25,200 nucleotides of DNA from a virus. This document shows positions 5,830 to 25,200 of the stretch, in pieces. A program made the translations under genes and the position numbers. Below the pieces are notes generated by a model that ran no database searches, was not told the origin of the DNA, and saw only the letters and a list, made by a program, of their open reading frames with translations. The number at the start of each line of letters is the position of its first letter. The first letter of the stretch is position 1. Where the stretch lies: positions 1 to 25,200 of IMG/VR virus record IMGVR_UViG_3300017963_000717; one strand, 5' to 3'.

Positions 5830-8216
5830 CAGAAGGGCTCCTCGACCTTCTGCTGCTCGGGCGCGACGGCCTCCCACTCGTAGGGACCGCCGTGCGTCTC
5901 GTCGAACAGGGCCCGCAGCTCGGCGAGCTTCGGCAGCACGAAGCAGTTCGGCCGCGGCGTGGTGCGCTCCTCGCCGGACTGCGGATGGACCGGCGGCAGG
6001 TCGACCTGGTCGAGCCCACTCGCCTGGCGATAGGCGACGTTGCCCTTAGTGGCCTTCGCCAGGAAGCGGCGCATCGCCGTCACGGAGATCCGGTCGCCGT
6101 AGGGCACGGCCATATTGTAGTCGTACACGAGGGACCCGGTCGGGATCAGCGCCCCGTCGGCCAGGCTGGCGTCGTCGATCGCCCCGACCTGGAGCGCGTC
6201 GAAGAACCACTTCGCCTCGGGGGAGAACGAGTGAGCCTTCTGGTCCTGGAGCGCGGCCGTGCGCGGGCGGGAGCGCGGGTCGAACTTCGCGACGGGTCGC
6301 GTCATCAGCATGTGCAGCAGCGTCTCGTAGCCGCCGCTGCTCAGCTCGCGCGCGATGTCGGCGAAGTAGCTGCCGTCCTGGATGTGCGCGCCGCCGACGT
6401 CGAGCACGACGAAGCGCCGGTCGTCGATGCCGGTGGGCACCACCCAGTCGTCGTTAGAGGCGAGGATCAGGTGCAGGTAGTTCCGCTCCACCGCGGCGTC
6501 CACGCCCTTGGCCTCCACGATCAGGTTCTCCTCGGTCACCATGGTCTTCAGCATGGACTCGTGGCGCCGGTCGTGGGCCGCGATGGCCTCGTCCGCGAAC
6601 AGCAGCACGCAGTCCCGCAGGTGCGCGTTGAAGGAGCCCACCAGGTGCTTCGCGTCGGTCACCTGCTTGAAGTGCTGGCCGAAGAGCTTCCCGAAGTGCT
6701 TCGCGAAGGAGCCCTTGCCCGCGCCCTGCGAGCCACGCAGCACGATGGCGGTATGCCCAGGCTGGTCGGGCTTCTGCACGGCGAGCGCCATCCAGTCGAG
6801 CAGGTACTCGAAGACCTCCTCGTTCCCGGAGCAGATGTTCTCGCGGACGTGGGCCAGGTACTTCTCGCACGAGCCGCCGGGCAGCGCGTTCACGGCCCAG
6901 CCGCGCCAGATGTTGTAGACGTCGGAGGCGGTCTCCTTCCCCGGCTCGAAGACGATCGAGCGGAAGCTCCGGCGCTGCGGGTGGTCGAGCCACCACTTGC
7001 CTGCGGGCACCAGCTTCGAGTTCTCTCCGTCGCCGACCTCGACCTTGCGGTTGCTGTAGAACTGGCGGAAGTCGGACGGCGACTGGTACACCAGCGCGCT
7101 CGTGTCCGGGTCCTCGTAGACCACGCGGCAGCGGCCGCCGCCCGTGTTCTGAACGACGGCATAGCGGCCGTTCAGCTCCATCAGCACCGGGTCGACGGCG
7201 AACTCGTGGGCCCGCTCGATCTGGCGCTTGGCGTAGCGCTCGGGGCGGCCGTTCGTCCCGTCCAGGACGGACTCGGAGATCGCCCAGTCGGCGTCGGTGA
7301 TGAGCGAGTAGATCATGTCGTCCGACACGCCCGCGCGCACCAGCTCGCAGACGACGTACCAGAGCGCGCCGCTGCGGCCCTCGTCGGCCCAGCGGTCGGG
7401 CTCGTCGGGGTGGAAGCCCTGGGCGATGACCGTCTTACAGAAGTCGTTCACGGTGTTGGGCAGCTCGTCCAGCGACATGATGCGCCGAACGTTCTCGTCG
7501 ACCTTGACCGTCGAGCCGGTCGACAGGCGCTGTCCCTTGGGCAGCGCGGTCTGGAGCTGCGGCGCCTTCGTGAAGGTGGACAGCGGGTAGCTCGCTCCGT
7601 TCATGTCGACGATCGTCGAGAGCGCGGCCGTGCGGCCCTTCTTCAGCTTGCGCTTGTCGGGCCAGTTCACGGTGCCCGGCAGGCGCGCGATCCGGTCGAC
7701 GTTGTGGCACGAGTCGGCGCCGAACAGCAGTTCGAGCTGGAGGTTGTAGAGCTTCGCCTCCTCGTAGCGGGCCTCGTCGCCCTCGATCTCGAAGGGCTCG
7801 TCCAGGCGCCAGAAGCCCCAGAAGCCTCCGCCCGAGTCGACGATCGCCGAGGGCGCGGGCACGCCCTCGGGGAGGTTCGTCGTCAGCAGGCCCATCAGGC
7901 GCTTGCGCTCGGCCTCGAAGTCCTCGCCCGTGCGCGGGTCGAGGTCGACGTGGAGGAACGACATGCGGGCGATGTCCGTTCGCAGCGCCTTCTTCGCCAT
8001 GTCGCGGCTCGGCGGGTTGACGCTGAAGTAGACGTTCAGGTCGGCCTCAGCCGCCTTCTCCAGGAAGGTGTGGACCTCGTCCTCCTGCCCCGCGCGGAAG
8101 GTTCCGTGCAGGTCGCCCACTCCTCCGCCCACCTTGATGGTGTTCAGCAGCCAGCGCTCGTCCGGGTGGACGAAGCGCAGCCAGCGGACGGACTCTTCAT
8201 GGCGGGGCTCGATCAT
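5829..8216 (-). CDS. PrimPol-like primase fused to SF3 (D5/P4-type) helicase
   Basis: 795 aa from the ATG at 8216, which has GAGGTG about 10 nt upstream and an ATGA overlap with the upstream stop. The N-terminal part looks like an archaeo-eukaryotic-type primase: HVDLDP (D91, D93) gives the metal-binding acidic pair, followed by DSGGGFWGFWRLDEP (about 127-141) and HNVDRIARLPGT (about 171-182). The C-terminal part is a D5/VapE-like superfamily 3 helicase: Walker A GSQGAGKGS (about 495-503), Walker B LLFADEA (about 538-544), and sensor-like LILASNDDWVVP (about 583-594). It should prime and unwind DNA during phage replication. No DnaB or DnaG gene is seen in the window, consistent with this protein filling both roles. 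Confidence 0.88.
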   Translation of the reverse strand: MIEPRHEESVRWLRFVHPDERWLLNTIKVGGGVGDLHGTFRAGQEDEVHTFLEKAAEADLNVYFSVNPPSRDMAKKALRTDIARMSFLHVDLDPRTGEDFEAERKRLMGLLTTNLPEGVPAPSAIVDSGGGFWGFWRLDEPFEIEGDEARYEEAKLYNLQLELLFGADSCHNVDRIARLPGTVNWPDKRKLKKGRTAALSTIVDMNGASYPLSTFTKAPQLQTALPKGQRLSTGSTVKVDENVRRIMSLDELPNTVNDFCKTVIAQGFHPDEPDRWADEGRSGALWYVVCELVRAGVSDDMIYSLITDADWAISESVLDGTNGRPERYAKRQIERAHEFAVDPVLMELNGRYAVVQNTGGGRCRVVYEDPDTSALVYQSPSDFRQFYSNRKVEVGDGENSKLVPAGKWWLDHPQRRSFRSIVFEPGKETASDVYNIWRGWAVNALPGGSCEKYLAHVRENICSGNEEVFEYLLDWMALAVQKPDQPGHTAIVLRGSQGAGKGSFAKHFGKLFGQHFKQVTDAKHLVGSFNAHLRDCVLLFADEAIAAHDRRHESMLKTMVTEENLIVEAKGVDAAVERNYLHLILASNDDWVVPTGIDDRRFVVLDVGGAHIQDGSYFADIARELSSGGYETLLHMLMTRPVAKFDPRSRPRTAALQDQKAHSFSPEAKWFFDALQVGAIDDASLADGALIPTGSLVYDYNMAVPYGDRISVTAMRRFLAKATKGNVAYRQASGLDQVDLPPVHPQSGEERTTPRPNCFVLPKLAELRALFDETHGGPYEWEAVAPEQQKVEEPF

Positions 8217-8545
8217 CGGCTTTTCACCTCGGACCAGTAGTCGATGAGGCGCTGCGGGTCCTGCTGTCCGCGCTCCATTTGCGTCAGCCACCAGGGCGAC
8301 ACGTCGAGCGCCTTGGCGAGAGCCGTGCGGCTCATGCCCTCGCGGCGGCGAAGGATGACCGCGGCCTCGTTCGGGGCGAGCTTCCCGATCTTGACGGCGG
8401 GCACGTCGCCCTCGCCGTTCTCGGCCTGGCGGTAGGCCCAGGTGGTGATGTCGAAGTAGTCGGCGGCCTGGGCTTGGTTCAGGTCGGCGCGGCGGCGCCA
8501 GATCAGGAGGCGCTCGTGCCTCGCGAGGTCAGACGTTGCAAGCAT
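8213..8545 (-). CDS. Protein with two helix-turn-helix domains (110 aa)
   Basis: 110 aa. Two Cro/C1-type HTH-like units can be read: LLIWRRRADLNQAQAADYFD (about 12-32) and ILRRREGMSRTALAKALDVSPWWLTQMERG (about 64-93), the second being the clearer match with its S-x-T-x-L-A pattern. It is probably a DNA-binding protein; directly upstream of the primase-helicase it could be a regulator or an origin-recognition factor. The ATG at 8545 lies 43 nt inside the VRR-NUC gene end. A shorter start is possible, but the first HTH would then be lost. Confidence 0.7.
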   Translation of the reverse strand: MLATSDLARHERLLIWRRRADLNQAQAADYFDITTWAYRQAENGEGDVPAVKIGKLAPNEAAVILRRREGMSRTALAKALDVSPWWLTQMERGQQDPQRLIDYWSEVKSR

Positions 8546-8931
8546 GGGAGTAGGTCGGTGGTAAGGGTGCGGTGGTTGAAGACCTGGATGGCGGCCGCCC
8601 GAAGGTCGGACTCCGTGGCCTCGCCGATAAGCGTAGCCGCCTGGTCTCCGAAGAGCAACAGGTACTCCGAAGAGACCTGGAGGAGAAGCAAAGAGAGCCC
8701 GCCCTTCTCCATTCGGCGGGTGAGCCAGACTCGCTGCTGCGGCGTGAAGTGCGGCAGGCGGACTGGTGTGGTCGGGCGCTTCGGCCAGGCGTCGAGCTTC
8801 TTCAGCTCGACCCATCCGCCGATGAACTCGATGTCCGGGGTTCCGGGCAGGCACGGGTTCTCCACGCGCATCGCGTCCAGCGGATGCAGCAGCTTGCGGA
8901 TCTTCCGGGCGAGCGTTGACTCCTTCGTCAT
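8503..8931 (-). CDS. VRR-NUC-type nuclease (PD-(D/E)xK fold)
   Basis: 142 aa. GTPDIEFIGGWVELKK supplies the conserved D and the ExK of the PD-(D/E)xK core, followed by a Gln-containing helix (FTPQQRVWLTRRM) as in VRR-NUC proteins. Phage members act on branched or broken DNA and often sit beside primase and helicase genes, as here. The ATG at 8931 is used; a TTG one codon upstream is less likely. No Shine-Dalgarno precedes it. The last 43 nt overlap the double-HTH gene. Confidence 0.8.
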   Translation of the reverse strand: MTKESTLARKIRKLLHPLDAMRVENPCLPGTPDIEFIGGWVELKKLDAWPKRPTTPVRLPHFTPQQRVWLTRRMEKGGLSLLLLQVSSEYLLLFGDQAATLIGEATESDLRAAAIQVFNHRTLTTDLLPCLQRLTSRGTSAS

Positions 8932-17873: not shown

Positions 17874-18944
17874 TCAGGCGAGCTTCGCGATGCGGTGCTC
17901 GGCGTCAGCAGCGTACTCGGCTTCGAGTTCGATGCCCACGACTTCTTCCCATCCCGCGCGGAGTGCTCCGATCATCTCGGAACCAGCTCCCGAGAAGGGG
18001 ACGAGGATCCTCCGCGGCGAGCCGTCGGAGTGCGGAGGCGGCAGCAGGAGCTTCGCGAGGTACTCAGTCAGAGCGAGCGGCTTCAGCGTCGGATGCTTCG
18101 ATCCAGCGCGCTCGGCCTTCGACGCCTTCGCGGTGTAGAAGAAGCGCGACGACTCGCCGACCATCTCCGCCGCCTCCTCGTCGAGGACGACGTTCGCGGG
18201 CCAGCGGCCCTGCTGCGACGGCTCGAACGTCCTACGATCCGCGGCGGGAGCGTAGGACGTTCGAGCCGTATTGAGCCCCTGCGTGACGGCGTTCTCGGTG
18301 TAGCCGTCCAATGCGGCCACCCTTCCCCCATCAATATTCAACCCCGCCACGCCCCACTTCTCGGCGTTCGCGGCGAACGTGCCGTCCGTCGGCTTCATGG
18401 CGAGGACGATGGGTTCCCATGCGGGCTTGAGGGCGGTGCCGTAGCCGTCGAGCTGCTTTGCGAGCGGGGTGGCTGAAGCGGTGCCCGGCGTGTGCTTCGT
18501 GGCGCCGGACTGCGAGTTCTCGCTTCGTGTCGTGTAGCGGGAGCACTCTCGCCCGGCAGCGAGGTCGGGGCAGTTGGACGCGCCCGAAGAGGTCACCTCA
18601 CGCTCCGCGCCCGCCGCCTTGTCGATCGCCTTCCCGACGTTGAGCGACTTCGGGAACCCCGTCCCGTACATCCACGAAAGGCAGTCGCGGATCTTGAATC
18701 CCGAGTCTTCGATGGCGCAGGTGAGCCGATGGAAGGTTCTCGTTCCGCCCGCGGCGAGGAGATGCGCTCCTGGCTTCAGGGTCTCCCGCACGAGAGCCCA
18801 GACCTCGGCGCTCGGGACTCCCTTGTCCCACGCCTTCCCCATGAAGGAGAGGCCGTAGGGCGGATCGCAGAGTACCGCGTCGAAGTGCTCGTCGGGAAGG
18901 GTAGGGAGGACGTCGGAGACGTCGCCGATGTGGATGATGTGCAT
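17874..18944 (-). CDS. DNA N6-adenine/N4-cytosine methyltransferase
   Basis: 356 aa. Catalytic motif IV DPPYGLSFMGKAWD (27-40) comes first and the SAM-binding motif I (VPFSGAGSEMIGA) near the C-terminus, the beta-class order. Other signatures are GRWPANVVLDEEAA, SRFFYTAKASKAER and KHPTLKPLALTEYL. Phage orphan methyltransferases protect against host restriction or mark the genome. No restriction enzyme gene is nearby. A 19-bp perfect inverted repeat lies inside the gene. ATG 18944 is 7 nt after the upstream stop. Confidence 0.92.
   Translation of the reverse strand: MHIIHIGDVSDVLPTLPDEHFDAVLCDPPYGLSFMGKAWDKGVPSAEVWALVRETLKPGAHLLAAGGTRTFHRLTCAIEDSGFKIRDCLSWMYGTGFPKSLNVGKAIDKAAGAEREVTSSGASNCPDLAAGRECSRYTTRSENSQSGATKHTPGTASATPLAKQLDGYGTALKPAWEPIVLAMKPTDGTFAANAEKWGVAGLNIDGGRVAALDGYTENAVTQGLNTARTSYAPAADRRTFEPSQQGRWPANVVLDEEAAEMVGESSRFFYTAKASKAERAGSKHPTLKPLALTEYLAKLLLPPPHSDGSPRRILVPFSGAGSEMIGALRAGWEEVVGIELEAEYAADAEHRIAKLA
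18218..18269. repeat. 19-bp perfect inverted repeat inside the methyltransferase gene
   Basis: ACGGCTCGAACGTCCTACG (18218-18236) is repeated as its exact reverse complement at 18251-18269, around a 14-nt loop containing CCGCGG. It encodes part of the TARTSYAP...DRRTFEP segment, an Arg/Thr-rich loop between conserved methyltransferase motifs. Confidence 0.9.
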
Positions 18945-19521: not shown

Positions 19522-19550
19522 ATGCTACCGGGTCAAAGCCAGTCGGGCAA
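19522..19550 (-). promoter_or_regulatory. Diverged promoter P11 (TTGCCC-17-TAGCAT)
   Basis: TTGCCC (19550-19545), a 17-nt spacer, TAGCAT (19527-19522), 9 nt, ATG at 19512. It lacks the conserved cassette spacer and hairpin and overlaps the last codons of the helicase gene, but keeps the hexamers and the exact -10 to ATG distance. Confidence 0.55.
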
Positions 19551-20984
19551 GCAGTCCCCGGTGACTTCTGCACCGATGTCGCGCTTGTTCCGCAGGCTGT
19601 TCAGGATGGGGCGGTCGTAAGTGCCCAGGGCGACGAGGTCGATGTACTGCACGGCGCGGCTGGGCATCCCCGCGCGGTGCGCCCTGTCTTCCGACTGGAG
19701 GCGCTGGTCCAGCCGATAGCTGTTTGAGCAGTAGATCACGGTGCCCGCTCGGGTCAGCGTGATGCCCTCGCCCGCGACAGAGACCTTGCCCACGAACCAG
19801 CGCGGTCCGTCGTCCGAGTCCTGGAAGGCGCGGATCGCGGCCTGGCGCTCGTCGTCGCCGACCTGTCCGTCGAAGCGGACGCAGGTGTCGCCCAGGGCTG
19901 CGACGATCTGGTCGACCTCCCAGGTCCAGCGAGCGAAGATGATGGCCTTCCCCTGGACCTCCTCCAGCAGCTCCAGGAGCGCCTCCAGGCGGACGTTCTC
20001 GCCGACCGGGACGTCGGGGCCGTCGTCGGTGCCGGTGAAGCCGCAGGCGATCTGCTGGAGCCTCGTGAGGCGGGTGAGGGCGAAGTCCGCGCTGACCTCC
20101 TCGCCGGACTCCAGCACGGCGCGCAGCTCCGAGCGCAGCTCGTCGTAGAGGCGGCGCTGTTTCGGGTCCAAGGAGAACTCGCGCTGGGAGTAGATTTTGG
20201 GAGGCAGGTCGGGCAGCACCTCGGACTTCAGCTTGCGGTCTGTGACCTCGGCCACCAGCTCCTGAAGCTCGGGCAGGTTGCGGTAGCGGACGAGCTGGTT
20301 CCATTGCTGCGACCCGGACTGGCGGCGCTCGAAGATGCCGAACCGCTGCCTGAAGAGGTGGAAGTTCTTCAGCCCACGGGCGGTCCAGTAGTCCGCGTCC
20401 AGGACCCGAAGCTGGGCGTAGACGTCGAACGGTCCCTGGGCGATGGGCGTGCCCGTCAGGATGCGGGTCACCTTCGCGTACTTGGCCGCGGCGACGACGC
20501 GCATAGACGTCTTCGACCCGGGCGTCTTCAGGCGCGCGGACTCGTCGCAGACCAGCATACAGCGCCGCTCGGTCAGGAAGCGCTTCAGCGCGGCGCCCCC
20601 GAGCTTCGTTATGGTGGCCTCGTAGTTCATGGCGAGGATGGCGAGGCCCTCGTGCTGGATCGCGTCCTCGAAGGAGCGCTGGTCCTTCTTCGGCATCGGG
20701 TTCTTCGAGACCCAGGAGTGCGCGCGCCAGTCGACCCACTCGGGCATATGCCTCGGCAGCTCGGTCTCCTCCCAGTTGCGGTAGACGCCCTTCGGGGCGA
20801 GGACCACCAGGGCGTCGATGTCCCCGCGCTCGAAGCGCCAGGTCGCCGTCATGATCGACGCGAGGGTCTTGCCTGCGCCCATCTCCCAGAAGAGCCCGAA
20901 CTCGTCTAGGTCGCGCGTGCGCTCCCAGACCTCCCGCTGGAACGGGTAGGGCTCGTGGTCGCCCCAGTAGGTTCGCTCGGTCAT
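19533..20984 (-). CDS. SNF2-family DEAD-like helicase/translocase
   Basis: 483 aa. Q-motif region PYPFQREVWE, Walker A WEMGAGKTLA (motif I), VVLAPKGV (Ia), LVCDESARLK (II), RILTGTPI (III), AIIFARWTWEVD (IV), VAGEGITLTRAGTVIYCSNS (V) and Q-EDRAHRAG (VI) give a full SNF2 set. Phage SNF2-like helicases are usually in replication or recombination modules. The ATG at 20984 overlaps the stop of the 33-aa ORF (TGATG), which fixes the start; longer upstream reading is a shadow. Confidence 0.92.
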   Translation of the reverse strand: MTERTYWGDHEPYPFQREVWERTRDLDEFGLFWEMGAGKTLASIMTATWRFERGDIDALVVLAPKGVYRNWEETELPRHMPEWVDWRAHSWVSKNPMPKKDQRSFEDAIQHEGLAILAMNYEATITKLGGAALKRFLTERRCMLVCDESARLKTPGSKTSMRVVAAAKYAKVTRILTGTPIAQGPFDVYAQLRVLDADYWTARGLKNFHLFRQRFGIFERRQSGSQQWNQLVRYRNLPELQELVAEVTDRKLKSEVLPDLPPKIYSQREFSLDPKQRRLYDELRSELRAVLESGEEVSADFALTRLTRLQQIACGFTGTDDGPDVPVGENVRLEALLELLEEVQGKAIIFARWTWEVDQIVAALGDTCVRFDGQVGDDERQAAIRAFQDSDDGPRWFVGKVSVAGEGITLTRAGTVIYCSNSYRLDQRLQSEDRAHRAGMPSRAVQYIDLVALGTYDRPILNSLRNKRDIGAEVTGDCLPDWL

Positions 20985-21085
20985 CAGCCCAGGGTGCGGA
21001 GGAGGCTCGCCATGGCCCAGGCGGCGGCGGCGATCAGGAGCAGGTCGCAGAGAGCGACCAGCATGTTGCGGGTTGTGTCCTTCAT
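20984..21085 (-). CDS. Membrane microprotein (33 aa), promoter P8
   Basis: 33 aa: MKDTTRN followed by a hydrophobic stretch (MLVALCDLLLIAAAAWAMAS) and LLRTLG, a probable single transmembrane helix. It has its own AAAGGA Shine-Dalgarno about 4 nt before the ATG, a cassette promoter about 45 nt upstream, and a TGATG overlap with the helicase, so it is a convincing gene despite its size. Its MKDT start resembles the MKNT starts of the other cassette genes. Function unknown. Confidence 0.68.
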   Translation of the reverse strand: MKDTTRNMLVALCDLLLIAAAAWAMASLLRTLG

Positions 21086-21131
21086 CGGTCCTTTGCGGCG
21101 GAGTAGGGGGGGGAGCCTCGCACACGGGAGA

Positions 21132-21160
21132 AGAGTATCCGGTCCGCCGCAGGAAAGCAA
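21132..21160 (-). promoter_or_regulatory. Cassette promoter P8 (TTGCTT-17-TACTCT), with leader
   Basis: TTGCTT (21160-21155), a 17-nt spacer beginning TCCTGCGG, TACTCT (21137-21132). The predicted start at about 21125 leaves a leader of about 40 nt with a run of eight C residues and an AAAGGA site. It is the only minus-strand copy with a normal leader; a shifted -10 (GATACT) is an alternative. Confidence 0.6.
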
Positions 21161-21179: not shown

Positions 21180-21413
21180 TCAGGGTGCCTCTAACTGGTC
21201 CAGGGCCTTGCGGAGCTGGGAGGCTTCGTTCAGCACGGTGCGGCGGTCGCTCGGGGTCGAGGCCAGGACGAAGACCTTCGGCCCGCCCTCGGGGCGGACG
21301 AGGGCCGCGTGGCCTGACCCGGTGAGCCGGAGCACCAGGCCCAAGTCCAGAGCGCGCTGGACCTGGACCCGGAGCTTCGGTGGCCTGGCCCTCAGGAAGC
21401 GGCGGGTGTTCAT
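21180..21413 (-). CDS. Hypothetical basic protein (77 aa)
   Basis: 77 aa, strongly basic N-terminus (MNTRRFLRARPPKLRVQVQR), then strands (GSGHAALVRPEGGPKVFVLAS) and a helical C-terminus (TVLNEASQLRKALDQLEAP). No family recognised; charge suggests nucleic-acid binding. The ATG overlaps the metallopeptidase stop (ATGA), so it is coupled to it. P8 starts right after its stop. Confidence 0.63.
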   Translation of the reverse strand: MNTRRFLRARPPKLRVQVQRALDLGLVLRLTGSGHAALVRPEGGPKVFVLASTPSDRRTVLNEASQLRKALDQLEAP

Positions 21414-22045
21414 CCGCGGGGCAGCAGGTCGTCGAACGGATCGAACACGGCGCGCGACCTGCGCTTCGCCTTCGTGACGGTGAAGCTGGCCTTCCGGCGA
21501 GGCGTGAAGCGGACGCCACGCTCGCGGAAGGAGTCGCGGAGGGCGTCGTGCTCGGCCTTGCCCTGGAACAGGCGGGTCAGCTCCAAAAAGGTGCGGGCGA
21601 ACAGGCGGCCGTGCTGCTCCCAGCTCGGGCAGAGCGTGTGCGCGATCTCGTGCAGGACGACGTCGCGGGTCCGGGCCCAGTCGGGGAGGGTGATGTAGCT
21701 GGAGCCGTAGGCTGCGGCGCGAGTGCGGCCGCGTCCGTCGCGGACCTCCAGGGTGCGGACTCCCCAGCGTCGCTGGAACGTCGCGGAGTTCAGAACCTTG
21801 GCGACGAAGCGCAGCGTGTCCGCGTAGCTCATGGGCGCGCCTCGGCGGACGACTCGCTCCGCGCTGTAGACCTTCGTGCGCTGCCAGTCGCGATCGAGCC
21901 CAGGGCTCATGCGGGTCTGGTGGCGCCAGAGATTCTGGTCCTTCCCGAAGAAGTTGTAGCAGGCTCGGCCGCCGTGGGAGGCGCGAGGGGTGAGGCGGAA
22001 GCCGCCTTCGCAGGTTGACTGGACGTCGGTGCTCTTGATTTTCAT
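21410..22045 (-). CDS. SprT-like zinc metallopeptidase
   Basis: 211 aa. LHEIAHTLCP (H132, E133, H136) with H145 nine residues later gives a zincin site in a helix as in SprT/Spartan-like proteins. The C-terminus is basic (RRKASFTVTKAKRRSRA). Spartan removes proteins crosslinked to DNA; in phages the targets of such proteins are unknown. The ATG at 22045 has GAGGG about 9 nt upstream and follows the 85-aa gene by 10 nt. Confidence 0.78.
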   Translation of the reverse strand: MKIKSTDVQSTCEGGFRLTPRASHGGRACYNFFGKDQNLWRHQTRMSPGLDRDWQRTKVYSAERVVRRGAPMSYADTLRFVAKVLNSATFQRRWGVRTLEVRDGRGRTRAAAYGSSYITLPDWARTRDVVLHEIAHTLCPSWEQHGRLFARTFLELTRLFQGKAEHDALRDSFRERGVRFTPRRKASFTVTKAKRRSRAVFDPFDDLLPRG

Positions 22046-22319: not shown

Positions 22320-22347
22320 ATCATACCCGCTACCCGCGAGAAAGCAA
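22320..22347 (-). promoter_or_regulatory. Cassette promoter P9 (TTGCTT-16-TATGAT), strictly leaderless geometry
   Basis: TTGCTT (22347-22342), a 16-nt spacer with TCTCGCGGG, TATGAT (22325-22320), then GGAGGC and the ATG at 22313. An A-rich stretch (AAGAAGAAACCGG) upstream resembles the cassette loop and could be an UP element. It faces P10 56 bp away. Confidence 0.76.
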
Positions 22348-22403
22348 GCGGTAGATCCGGTTTCTTCTTGGTTGTCTTTTTGTGAGAACTTCGGACAAGT
22401 CGC

Positions 22404-22432
22404 TTGCCTTTTCGCGGCGAGCGTGGTATGAT
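22404..22432 (+). promoter_or_regulatory. Rightward cassette promoter P10 (TTGCCT-17-TATGAT)
   Basis: TTGCCT (22404-22409), a 17-nt spacer with TTTCGCGG as in the minus-strand copies, TATGAT (22427-22432). Predicted start near 22439, giving a leader of about 43 nt with AGGAGGG 9 nt before the ATG at 22482. The only plus-strand copy. Confidence 0.78.
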
Positions 22433-22442
22433 GCTGGCGTGT

Positions 22443-22481: not shown

Positions 22482-22766
22482 ATGGAAGCGCTTCGCTCCA
22501 GCTACTCGGAACTCGCCTGCTCGCTCAACCTTCTCCTCGACCAGCGCGTCGAGGCGCGGGAGGCTCGGCGGCCCATCGCCGAGATCGACGAGCGCCAGAT
22601 CGCCCTCCGGGGCGAGATGCGCCGCGCGGCGCTGGAGCTTTCCAAGGCCTACATGGCCGAGGGCGACGTGGAGCAGGCCAAGGCCTGGGCCGAGTGCCTG
22701 GCCGAACACGCAGGCGTCATCGAGCGCCTGGAGGAGAGCGCGGCTCGGAGGGGCCTCCGGGGCTGA
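22482..22766 (+). CDS. Hypothetical helical protein (94 aa), rightward
   Basis: 94 aa, almost entirely helical and charged: MEALRSSYSELACSLNLLLD, then EIDERQIALRGEMRRAALEL and a C-terminal coiled-coil-like segment (EHAGVIERLEESAARR). No family recognised. The start at 22482 has a strong AGGAGGG Shine-Dalgarno. It and its neighbour are the only rightward genes, transcribed divergently from the early block, a place where phages often keep a regulator, but no DNA-binding motif is visible. Confidence 0.75.
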   Translation: MEALRSSYSELACSLNLLLDQRVEAREARRPIAEIDERQIALRGEMRRAALELSKAYMAEGDVEQAKAWAECLAEHAGVIERLEESAARRGLRG

Positions 22767-22984
22767 TGGGGCGCTTCGAGCCTGACGCGCTCTGGGCCTG
22801 GGTCGACGGGACCTGGGCCCGAGCGGTCGAAGTGAACGGCGAGCCCGTCGCGCAGGACCTTCGTGCCGCCTGCCAGGCACTTCGGGCAGAGGGCATCCCG
22901 GCCCACGTCGGCAGCCTGTCCATGGGTCCGCCCGACGGCGAGCCCGTCGCCGGGTGCTGCTTCGATGACGACGCCCGGCCGTAG
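22766..22984 (+). CDS. Hypothetical protein (72 aa), second gene of the rightward pair
   Basis: 72 aa: MGRFEPDALWAWVDGTWARA, a short helix (AQDLRAACQALRAEG) and a Gly/Pro-rich end with GCCFDDDARP. No family recognised. Its ATG overlaps the upstream TGA (TGATG), so it is translationally coupled to the 94-aa gene. A GCCCGGC hairpin spans its stop codon. Confidence 0.68.
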   Translation: MGRFEPDALWAWVDGTWARAVEVNGEPVAQDLRAACQALRAEGIPAHVGSLSMGPPDGEPVAGCCFDDDARP

Positions 22985-22990
22985 CCGGGC
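22973..22990 (+). terminator. Hairpin spanning the stop codon of the rightward operon
   Basis: GCCCGGC-CGTA-GCCGGGC, 7 bp, with the TAG stop starting in the loop. No T-tract follows, so it may need a factor or simply stabilise the 3' end. Confidence 0.4.
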
Positions 22991-23079
22991 GCCGAGATCC
23001 ATCACCTCCTGCCGGGCGGGTCACCGAGCGCGCCCCGCACGAGGCGCCATCCTACCAAGCGAGAGATCAGGCGAAAAGT

Positions 23080-23112
23080 GGGCCCCGCGTCACCTGCAAG
23101 ATCGCGGGGCCC
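23080..23112 (-). terminator. Leftward intrinsic terminator 2
   Basis: Ten-bp perfect stem GGGCCCCGCG / CGCGGGGCCC with a 13-nt loop; on the minus strand it is followed by ACTTTTCG. It would stop transcription coming from the structural genes. Confidence 0.7.
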
Positions 23113-23174
23113 GTGCCATGAAGAGGCTCGCGCCTCGACGCCCAGAGCCTACCCGCCCGAGGGCGCAGGCAAAA

Positions 23175-23206
23175 GGAGGCCCCGGACATTTCTGGCCAGG
23201 GCCTCC
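23175..23206 (-). terminator. Leftward intrinsic terminator 1
   Basis: GGAGGCCC / GGGCCTCC, 8-bp perfect stem; on the minus strand followed directly by TTTTGCC. The clearest terminator of the window's late region. Confidence 0.8.
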
Positions 23207-23260
23207 ACCCCACCCTGCCGAATCCCCATTCGACAGCGTCTCATGCCGGGACCAGAGAGG

Positions 23261-23360
23261 GGCGAGCCCGGTCGCGGCAAAACTATTATTCTTGTTACTA
23301 AAGTTGTTGGGTTACAAAAAACCACTCATGAGCCGCTATTCTGCCGCGACTGGGCTCGCC
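23261..23360. repeat. 19-bp inverted repeat enclosing an AT-rich island
   Basis: GGCGAGCCCGGTCGCGGCA (23261-23279) and TGCCGCGACTGGGCTCGCC (23342-23360) pair with one mismatch (a G-T pair when transcribed). Between them lie 62 bases with only about one third G+C, against roughly two thirds around it, containing TTGTTAC and GGGTTAC motifs and runs of A. No open reading frame of note. Candidate replication origin, protein-binding site or large structured RNA. Confidence 0.75.
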
Positions 23361-23444
23361 TCCAGCTTTTAGCTAGTGGCGACCGAGGCGAGCGCAAGTC
23401 TGGGCGCAGCAGGAGCTTACGCCGTTCCGTCTCACCTAGAGAGG

Positions 23445-23732
23445 CTAGGAATGCAAGGAAGCCTTGATCCCGAGCCACGTCGCGGCGGCCAGGGAGCTGA
23501 TGACGATGCCCACTAGCACCAGCATTCCCTTCGACCGGATCCGCTGGTGGGCCTGCCTCATCTCGCGGAGGAAGGCCATGTCCTGCTGGAGCTGGATCGG
23601 GTTCCGGGCGTCCATGCCCAGGGTCACGAGGGTCTCGTGGACGCTCGTGCGGACGATCCGCTCGACGTCGACGGTGGCGGGAAGGGTCGTGGGCGGCAGG
23701 TGCGCGGGCGGCGGCTTCTGCGGATCGGTCAT
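23445..23732 (-). CDS. Small membrane protein, holin-region type (95 aa)
   Basis: 95 aa. Pro-rich N-terminus (TDPQKPPPAHLPPTTLP), a helical middle (ETLVTLGMDARNPIQLQQDM, FLREMRQAHQRIRSK) and one C-terminal transmembrane segment (GMLVLVGIVISSLAAATWLG). Proteins with this layout (a short soluble helix with DMAFLRE, then one membrane span) are common near tail and lysis genes of phages and are sometimes called holin-like. It follows the tail gene by 4 nt with GGAG about 10 nt before its ATG. No endolysin is seen, so the lysis role is unproven. Confidence 0.65.
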   Translation of the reverse strand: MTDPQKPPPAHLPPTTLPATVDVERIVRTSVHETLVTLGMDARNPIQLQQDMAFLREMRQAHQRIRSKGMLVLVGIVISSLAAATWLGIKASLHS

Positions 23733-23736
23733 GAGG

Positions 23737-25200
23737 TCAGGACTCCAGGATGGCGAAGGCGTCGGTGCCCGCGCCAGGCGCAGCCATGTCGAGCTGCTTC
23801 AGGATCGCGACGTCGGACGAGGTGTGGCGGACCTCGATGACGTCAGAAACGGCGACTCCGGCGATCGACCCCGAGGTGTTCCCCGCGCTGATGAGCGTGG
23901 TCCACGCGCCGAACCCGCCTCCGGTGTCGATACGATACTCAACGTCCCCCGCGCTGAACACGCTCGACAGGGTGAAGCCGTGGCTGCCTGCGGCGTCCGC
24001 GGTGTATTGCGCGCTCGTCTCGTTCTGCGAAAGGAGACCGAACTCGAACTGGCCCTCCAGGGCGGACGCGATGTCGAAGTCGTGGACCAGCGTCTGGCGG
24101 CTCGTGAGCGTCTCCCCTGCGTCCGTGTGGCGGCTCTGGACGGAGATGCGGAGGTCGGCCGACGGGACGGCCCCGTCGAGCGCCTGGAGCAGCACGAGGC
24201 GCTCCAGGGCGAAGTTCGTCCCGGAGACCACCTCCGCGGTGTAGACGGCGTCGTCGGCGCCACCGGGGTCATGCACGACCGTCACCAGGTGCTCGGTAGA
24301 GTTCGCGCTCGGGAAGTCCGAGAAGGTGGTCGCCGCGTCCTCGGTCAGGGCCGTGATCTCGTTCCCCAGGTCGGCGGTGCGGTAGTCGCGGCGCTGGAGG
24401 TCGACGTCGATGTGGAAGTCCTCGGGGCCGGTCCCGCCGGACTCCAGGGAGACGTCGGTGGTGTCCCAGTCGACGGAGTTCAGGGTCAGGAGCGCGGGCG
24501 GGTACGGGCGCCGGACCCGCTTGTCCATGGTGAAGGTGATGGTGGTCGCCGCGGACTCCAGCAGCTCGGCGTTGATGCTGACCGGGATCAGCTTCACCTC
24601 GACGTTGTCCGTTTCTGGGATCGAGTCGTCCGTGATGGCCGCGCCCGAGGACAGGACGTAGACGGGCGTGCCCACCGCGTGGTCGGCCTGCACGGAGTCG
24701 AGCGCGCCGCGGTAGACGTTCGCCAGCCGGGTGACGGCGCCGCTGTTGGAGGCGGACTCCACCAGCATGAACTCGTCCCCCACCAGCACGAGGTTCCGCA
24801 GGTTGGTGCCCAGCTCCGTCAGGTCGTCGGTGGTCGAGAAGGAGCCCGTCAGGTCGGACTGCGAGTCGGGCGTGGCGGCCAGGTCCAGGGTCGTCAGCGG
24901 GTAGGCGCTCTTCGTCGACAGGGCCGAGTCCAGCACGCCGATCTTGGCGAACTGGAAGCTCGTGCCCGCCACATTGAAGTCGCCCGAGACCGCGCCCGAG
25001 GCGTGGCGCTCGCGGACCTCGAAGATGGCGGCCGACCCTCGGGCGCGGGCCGCGGCGTAGACCTTGTCCACCAGGGAGCCGTCGCGCGGGTCCCGTCGCA
25101 CCAGGGCCCGGGGCGCCTCGAAGGCCACCTGCTCGTCGGCCGGGAATGCCTCGACGCCCACGGTCGGATCGGTCCATTCGGAGCCGTCCGGGTCCGCGAA
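23737..25200 (-). CDS. Phage tail/baseplate-type protein, partial (5' end beyond window)
   Basis: 487 codons are visible and the frame stays open to the right edge (FADPDGSEWTDPT precedes the first in-window GTG), so the gene probably starts outside. Residues near GDEFMLVESAS followed by VYRGALDSVQADHAVGTPVY match the pattern seen in tail-tip/baseplate proteins of gene-transfer-agent and siphophage type, where 'E-LQ/V...RG..GT..A.H..G..V' recurs. The C-terminal part is Ser/Thr/Gly-rich and beta-sheet-like (GGGFGAWTTLISAGNTSGSI), probably exposed domains. It is the only structural gene visible. Confidence 0.68.
   Translation of the reverse strand, partial: FADPDGSEWTDPTVGVEAFPADEQVAFEAPRALVRRDPRDGSLVDKVYAAARARGSAAIFEVRERHASGAVSGDFNVAGTSFQFAKIGVLDSALSTKSAYPLTTLDLAATPDSQSDLTGSFSTTDDLTELGTNLRNLVLVGDEFMLVESASNSGAVTRLANVYRGALDSVQADHAVGTPVYVLSSGAAITDDSIPETDNVEVKLIPVSINAELLESAATTITFTMDKRVRRPYPPALLTLNSVDWDTTDVSLESGGTGPEDFHIDVDLQRRDYRTADLGNEITALTEDAATTFSDFPSANSTEHLVTVVHDPGGADDAVYTAEVVSGTNFALERLVLLQALDGAVPSADLRISVQSRHTDAGETLTSRQTLVHDFDIASALEGQFEFGLLSQNETSAQYTADAAGSHGFTLSSVFSAGDVEYRIDTGGGFGAWTTLISAGNTSGSIAGVAVSDVIEVRHTSSDVAILKQLDMAAPGAGTDAFAILES

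Follow-up and report, generated by a model that had tools for sequence, protein, structure and literature searches.

Gene content of the late/early junction

The window analysed here, a stretch of 25,200 nucleotides, is a 25.2-kb viral record of 68% GC and not a whole genome. Toward its right end lies a gap of 460 bp (22985-23444) between convergent genes, the plus-strand gene ending at 22984 and the minus-strand gene at 23445, in agreement with the convergent, gene-free gap described in the initial annotation of this DNA. As the late operon ends to the right of the gap and early genes lie to its left, the gap is where late operon and early module meet (Table 1). Leftward from the early promoter region, the early genes encode a helicase, a methyltransferase, ribonucleotide reductase, a PolI-type polymerase, dCMP deaminase, and the primase-helicase; the two short genes that converge on the late operon had no family match. 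The tandem leftward terminators that had been proposed for the gap are recognizable as two terminator-like hairpins with T4 tails (-26 kcal/mol for the one nearer the late operon, -27 kcal/mol for the other), though a strict terminator consensus scan returned neither.

Table 1. Positions of genes and sequence features in the window
Feature	Position	Strand	Remarks
Primase-helicase, 820 aa	5829..8291	-	RepB'-like AEP primase + SF3-type helicase (DUF5906, NrS-1 like); proposed initiator
DNA helicase, phrog_62	19533..21125	-	Early operon; directly behind iteron gap in M6 and CN1
Divergent early promoter region	22340..22440	.	Second AT-rich spot; TTGCCT-17-TATGAT on +
Two short overlapping genes (22482-22766, 22766-22984)	22482..22984	+	Convergent with late operon
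Second terminator-like hairpin	about 23080..23112	-	GGGCCCCGCG/CGCGGGGCCC then ACTTTT; downstream of inverted repeat on late transcript
Terminator-like hairpin	about 23175..23206	-	Followed by TTTT; downstream of inverted repeat on late transcript
Left arm of inverted repeat	23261..23282	.	GGCGAGCCCGGTCGCGGCAAAA
AT-rich island	23280..23341	.	34% G+C, at window AT minimum; proposed unwinding element
Right arm of inverted repeat	23339..23360	.	TTCTGCCGCGACTGGGCTCGCC
Small membrane protein, 95 aa, phrog_6420/PHA00649 type	23445..23732	-	Last late-operon gene; anchor for relatives' junction
End of tail protein, phrog_1101	23737..25161	-	56% identical to L002; second anchor

Early promoters near 21150, 22351, and 22404, and one at ~6575 in the related record L002, appear by eye to have in common a CGCTTGC-CTTT-like -35 block and a TATGAT or TATAGT -10 element; a pattern search of the window for the motif as written gave no match. 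A minus-strand frame at 21410-22045, for which there was no PHROG match, appears by eye to contain an HEIAHT-like motif and perhaps encodes an SprT-like metallopeptidase. The protein encoded at 8213-8854, next to the primase-helicase gene, matches phage transcriptional repressors. A clustering of CTAG near 23373-23513 was dropped as a candidate feature, being partly stop-codon context common to L002.

An inverted repeat around the AT minimum

The gap contains a 100-bp hairpin with 22-nt arms set 56 nt apart and 91% complementary (20 of 22 positions paired); the near-perfect 19-bp arms of the initial annotation are thus real, and extend by three more positions. Both arm mismatches are transitions and leave each strand with one wobble pair; the arms therefore favor RNA of neither strand. 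The 62-bp island between the arms, originally put at about one third G+C, has that composition and overlaps the 62 bp of lowest GC content in the window (32% G+C, the next lowest being 44%). The AT minimum of the window hence coincides with its only long-loop inverted repeat. In an ungapped scan that allowed loops of up to 150 nt, the arms scored 16; the highest scores reached in six Markov sequences as long as the window were 11-14. These results confirm the AT-rich inverted repeat as an observation. One stronger inverted repeat was found in the window by the same scan, at 18218-18269; it has 23-nt arms and a 6-nt loop, and lies within the frame of the DNA methyltransferase (17874-18944), whose family matches are split around its middle.

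Copies of the arms and island were sought in the contig and in other records. The initial annotation had suggested a search for the arms elsewhere in the genome; the contig has no second copy of the hairpin. An exact arm search of viral contigs gave no match, and a degenerate search gave ten single-arm matches, which is the chance level. The inner-arm pair, searched for with a gap, occurs in 35 viral records, where the loop is 48-78% GC and the arms have almost no extension; in no other sampled phage were the arms paired around an AT-rich loop. A 24-mer of the island, searched for in one genome per species, had no match; blastn of the gap turned up only short chance matches among phages and plasmids; and no close relative with >60% protein identity was found. 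Because arms and island were without detectable copies, the comparison with other phages was anchored on position instead, using the small membrane protein (80 viral loci, 62 phage records, and 12 genome loci) and the tail protein (27 loci).

Iteron loci at the equivalent junction of relatives

The closest relatives, L002 and L123, show 56-57% identity over the tail protein. In L002 the junction holds an AT-rich run surrounded by ACTCCTAGTA-like repeats, at least seven in number and facing either way, and in this 32-kb record the AT minimum and the repeat maximum coincide at the late/early junction. The L123 junction has ACTGAGA/TCTCAGT repeats. Repeats of other types are present at the junctions of phages M6, LKO4, and CN1 (CGCTTAGGTTACTT-type repeats flanking GTAAGTAAGTTAAGTAAGTTAAG, plus an AT-rich run) and of the records L057, L020, and L054 (GACTCTACC(T)-type), L082 and L047 (CTTGACTTA-type), and L126 (CTCTACTCTACTC). 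All of these junctions combine iterons with an AT-rich run. Judging from their anatomy, these loci look like iteron origins in which the repeat sequence has drifted between lineages. Many relatives, e.g., the Bradleyvirinae, have only terminators or genes at the junction, so that position alone is no proof of function. Repeats were also seen elsewhere: Pseudomonas phage KPP23 has seven TAAAACGAA copies in 150 bp between early genes (6190-6341 of its locus L005), possibly its own iteron locus at a different place, and an uncultured relative (L078) has six CGTACTGAC copies in 300 bp (629-917).

No iteron array is present in the window gap, where the repeat excess in the 80-locus comparison was z 1.2, and matches of the L002 iteron matrix were scattered over the window with no cluster in the gap. 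In a test of repeated 7-mers against dinucleotide shuffles, the iteron gaps of relatives gave z values of ~5 to 65, L047 being the exception; the window gap gave z 2.8, which is partly due to the hairpins themselves.

The window resembles the iteron loci in its base composition. When the GC dip was defined as the fall from the GC content of the locus to that of its lowest 60-bp stretch, the values among 80 distinct loci were 0.42 for CN1, 0.41 for L082, 0.39 for L002 (listed among the loci as L019), 0.35 for M6, and 0.35 for the window, and at most 0.23 for the remainder. The first four all have an iteron excess of z ≥ 5.8 and fall within the seven loci with z >5; the hypergeometric probability that four of four dip loci are among seven such loci in 79 is ~2e-5. 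Inverted repeats with an arm score ≥13 and a loop of 40-90 nt numbered 11 in 880 kb, two of them being the same repeat, and those of L057, L082, and L126 sit at the junction, a tendency of modest significance (P = 0.028 in the set tested, window omitted). The long inverted repeats of these three are made of iterons, and such repeats are absent in most loci. What recurs in relatives is the position and the AT dip, not the arm sequence or the loop. The initial annotation had named a lack of conserved arms or island in close relatives as a refutation, and this applies by half.

The primase-helicase

Homologues of the primase-helicase from five related records are 43-51% identical to it. They include those of CN1 and the L082 phage, both of which carry iteron loci (45-47% identity for these two). 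The N-terminal domain of the window protein gave a good-confidence model that matches the RepB' primase (3h20, 3h25), and the homologues passed or approached the RepB_primase Pfam model. The helicase part matches DUF5906 and VapE-like models, plus the NrS-1 helicase region (E 4e-19). The C-terminus, where a winged helix was sought, had pLDDT below 60 in most model blocks. An AEP primase joined to an SF3-type helicase is suited to opening a site such as the hairpin, which lies 15 kb from the primase gene. Because relatives with homologous enzymes use iterons, a hairpin origin cannot be predicted from the enzyme family by itself.

A candidate replication origin

As the hairpin lies where relatives carry repeat-rich, origin-like DNA, it is probably a stem-loop version of the replication start, and its dimensions closely match those of the stem-loop of plasmid pRN1 (see below), which likewise favors a replication-origin core. 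Among the options that the initial annotation left side by side, which included a structured RNA and a mobile-element remnant, the comparative evidence thus favors the origin. The support is partial: the position matches the AT-rich iteron loci of relatives and a primase-helicase is present, but the arms and loop are not conserved. Our preferred reading, to which we give about even confidence, is accordingly that the hairpin may be the core of a replication origin in which one long hairpin has replaced the iterons.

The starting points of this reading (the hairpin, its rarity, its AT content and its position, the iteron/AT loci of relatives, and the enzyme domains) are direct observations; from them we infer origin function, binding of the primase-helicase at the hairpin, and the replacement of iterons by a hairpin. 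The site would be the origin core of a siphophage, placed at the boundary of its late and early modules. The inverted arms would serve for recognition, as an extruded hairpin structure, or both, and the AT-rich 62 bp would be the unwinding zone. The phage primase-helicase might assemble at the hairpin, where it would open the loop and make the first primers for extension by the phage PolI-type polymerase. One long hairpin with an AT-rich loop would in this way do the job of the relatives' iteron arrays beside an AT-rich run. Against an origin are the lack of iterons in the gap, the location of the AT run within the loop rather than beside a repeat, the lack of a close homologue, the many relatives with nothing but terminators or genes at the junction, the distance from the primase gene, and the GC skew of LKO4, which was uninformative and did not single out the junction. 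We found no mapped origin for Yuavirus-like or Mesyanzhinovviridae-like phages in the literature covered, which did not extend to subscription papers, and candidate loci may be noted elsewhere; a paper on phages with CtrA sites (PMC9437464) does not discuss the origin.

Alternative roles of the hairpin

The hairpin could instead act as a structured RNA at the 3' end of the leftward late mRNA, stabilizing or processing the message or serving as a small RNA. This is an unlikely alternative, although not a negligible one, for the hairpin does lie between the last late gene and the two leftward terminators, and both strands fold far better than shuffles (RNA folding z = -5.8 and -6.5, with 0 of 200 shuffles as good; DNA folding z = -5.5 and -4.1). 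However, the loop region by itself folds no better than shuffles on either strand, the transitions in the arms leave neither strand preferred, and no Rfam family matched the hairpin at the gathering threshold, the sub-threshold matches being mostly to miRNA families. Moreover, the other late-operon ends of relatives have ordinary short hairpins.

Also rather improbable is that the hairpin is a protein-binding site of the module boundary with a role other than origin, i.e., in transcription control, partition, or packaging/recombination. This possibility comes from the paired repeat loci of several relatives, seen in complete or long records. In LKO4 the repeats are at about 0.62 and 35.7 kb (L109, about 620, and L110, about 4712), which are both boundaries of the early module, one of them preceding the terminase genes. 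The repeats of CN1 are at 0.5 and 34.96 kb (L207, about 500, and L208, about 15150). G006 has inverted repeats of 134 and 127 bp at 15.9 and 47.0 kb (L203, 15857-15990, and L205, about 7374), and in G014 the loci, placed by repeat family, are at 22.95 and 59.2 kb (L195 and L196); G010 has a single locus, placed in the same way. Paired loci share repeat family and orientation, consist of iterons plus AT-rich DNA, and are 46-58% of the genome apart. Such spacing, about half a genome, suits two origins, but suits a boundary-control or partition site as well. What tells against a boundary site is that origins classically consist of AT-rich runs adjoining inverted iteron arrays, and that the window hairpin is behind converging genes, not at a promoter. 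The window record covers one module boundary, the second being off the contig. In G006 and G010 the AT run is beside the inverted repeat; in the window it is inside the loop.

We consider it quite improbable that the hairpin does no more than strongly block transcription or replication forks, in both directions, between convergent operons. The gap is indeed convergent and has two further hairpins, but these short hairpins already serve the leftward side. The long hairpin itself has neither feature of an intrinsic terminator: no T-run directly follows the stem on either strand, and its loop is much longer than a terminator would have. The other option of the initial annotation, that a small mobile element with terminal inverted repeats left a remnant here, gained nothing from the arm and island searches and is very improbable; the 100-bp length and 22-bp terminal inverted repeats would fit such an element, but, as already noted in the initial annotation, no target-site duplication is visible beside the hairpin, the contig has no further copy, viral contigs and one genome per species have no matching arms or island, and the inner-arm-pair records have GC-richer loops almost without arm extension. 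A phage attachment site, suggested by an AT-rich site with inverted flanks in a gap, is scarcely credible, as no integrase was found among the window proteins scanned and a survey of the Mesyanzhinovviridae, which blames misannotation of primase-helicases, likewise reports no integrases (PMC11946847).

Comparison with known replication systems

A replication-origin core can be compared with several known systems. Relative to an iteron origin, the window has the AT-rich element and the shared position, and has no short-repeat array. The iteron loci of Yuavirus-like phages (M6, LKO4, CN1, and uncultured relatives) lie, like the hairpin, behind the PHA00649 gene, have a GC dip of the same depth, and occur with a homologous primase-helicase. 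They differ in that their short repeats form arrays adjoining the AT run, where the window has a single inverted pair that encloses it. Several of these relatives have two loci per genome; the second boundary of the window phage is off its contig. Mesyanzhinovviridae-like siphophages are widely used Pseudomonas phages, and the comparison made here yields concrete origin candidates for them, with two loci each in LKO4, CN1, G006, and G014.

Other parallels concern the enzyme. The alpha protein of P4 is a virus-encoded primase plus helicase that acts as an initiator, unwinding and priming at the origin (PMC4234260). The window phage likewise encodes a primase plus helicase as its proposed initiator; P4 alpha, however, has a primase of the Toprim type and binds repeats, whereas the primase of the window phage is of the AEP type and the hairpin site lacks repeats. 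RepB' of RSF1010, which the window primase domain matches, primes at ssi stem-loops exposed by unwinding (PMC4234260). In RSF1010, unlike in the window phage, iteron binding and helicase activity reside in different proteins, and the ssi hairpins are described as short. The stem-loop of BIP-1 (PMC4234260) was located but has arms of only 9 bp, which makes it a weak parallel.

The closest likeness in dimensions is to the Sulfolobus plasmid pRN1, in which a 100-bp stem-loop (21-nt stem and 58-nt loop at 75 C) beside a terminator is required for replication, and in which the replication protein comprises an AEP primase, an SF3 helicase, and a winged helix; assembly of such proteins at stem-loops, in some phages as well, was put forward by the authors of that work (PMC4234260). 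The stem is 21 nt in pRN1 and 22 nt in the window, the loop 58 and 56 nt, and the total about 100 bp in both; both have a terminator nearby, no iterons, and a protein with AEP primase and SF3-type helicase domains. On the other hand, the pRN1 hairpin directly follows the replication gene and has been proven necessary, whereas that of the window follows the late operon, 15 kb away from the primase-helicase gene, and has a putative role; the window loop is also AT-rich in a 68% GC genome, unlike that of pRN1. As the window hairpin does not follow the replication gene and would be a putative origin, we do not assign it to a pRN1 type of origin. More specifically, and only tentatively since we think it rather unlikely, this could be a pRN1-like stem-loop origin in a tailed dsDNA phage, one lineage having swapped duplicated iteron origins for an AT-loop hairpin recognized by a RepB'-like primase-SF3-type helicase. 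If the hairpin is the site equivalent to the relatives' iteron loci, then iteron and hairpin origins would be interchangeable around one homologous primase-helicase, and the stem-loop origin proposed for pRN1 would extend to tailed phages.
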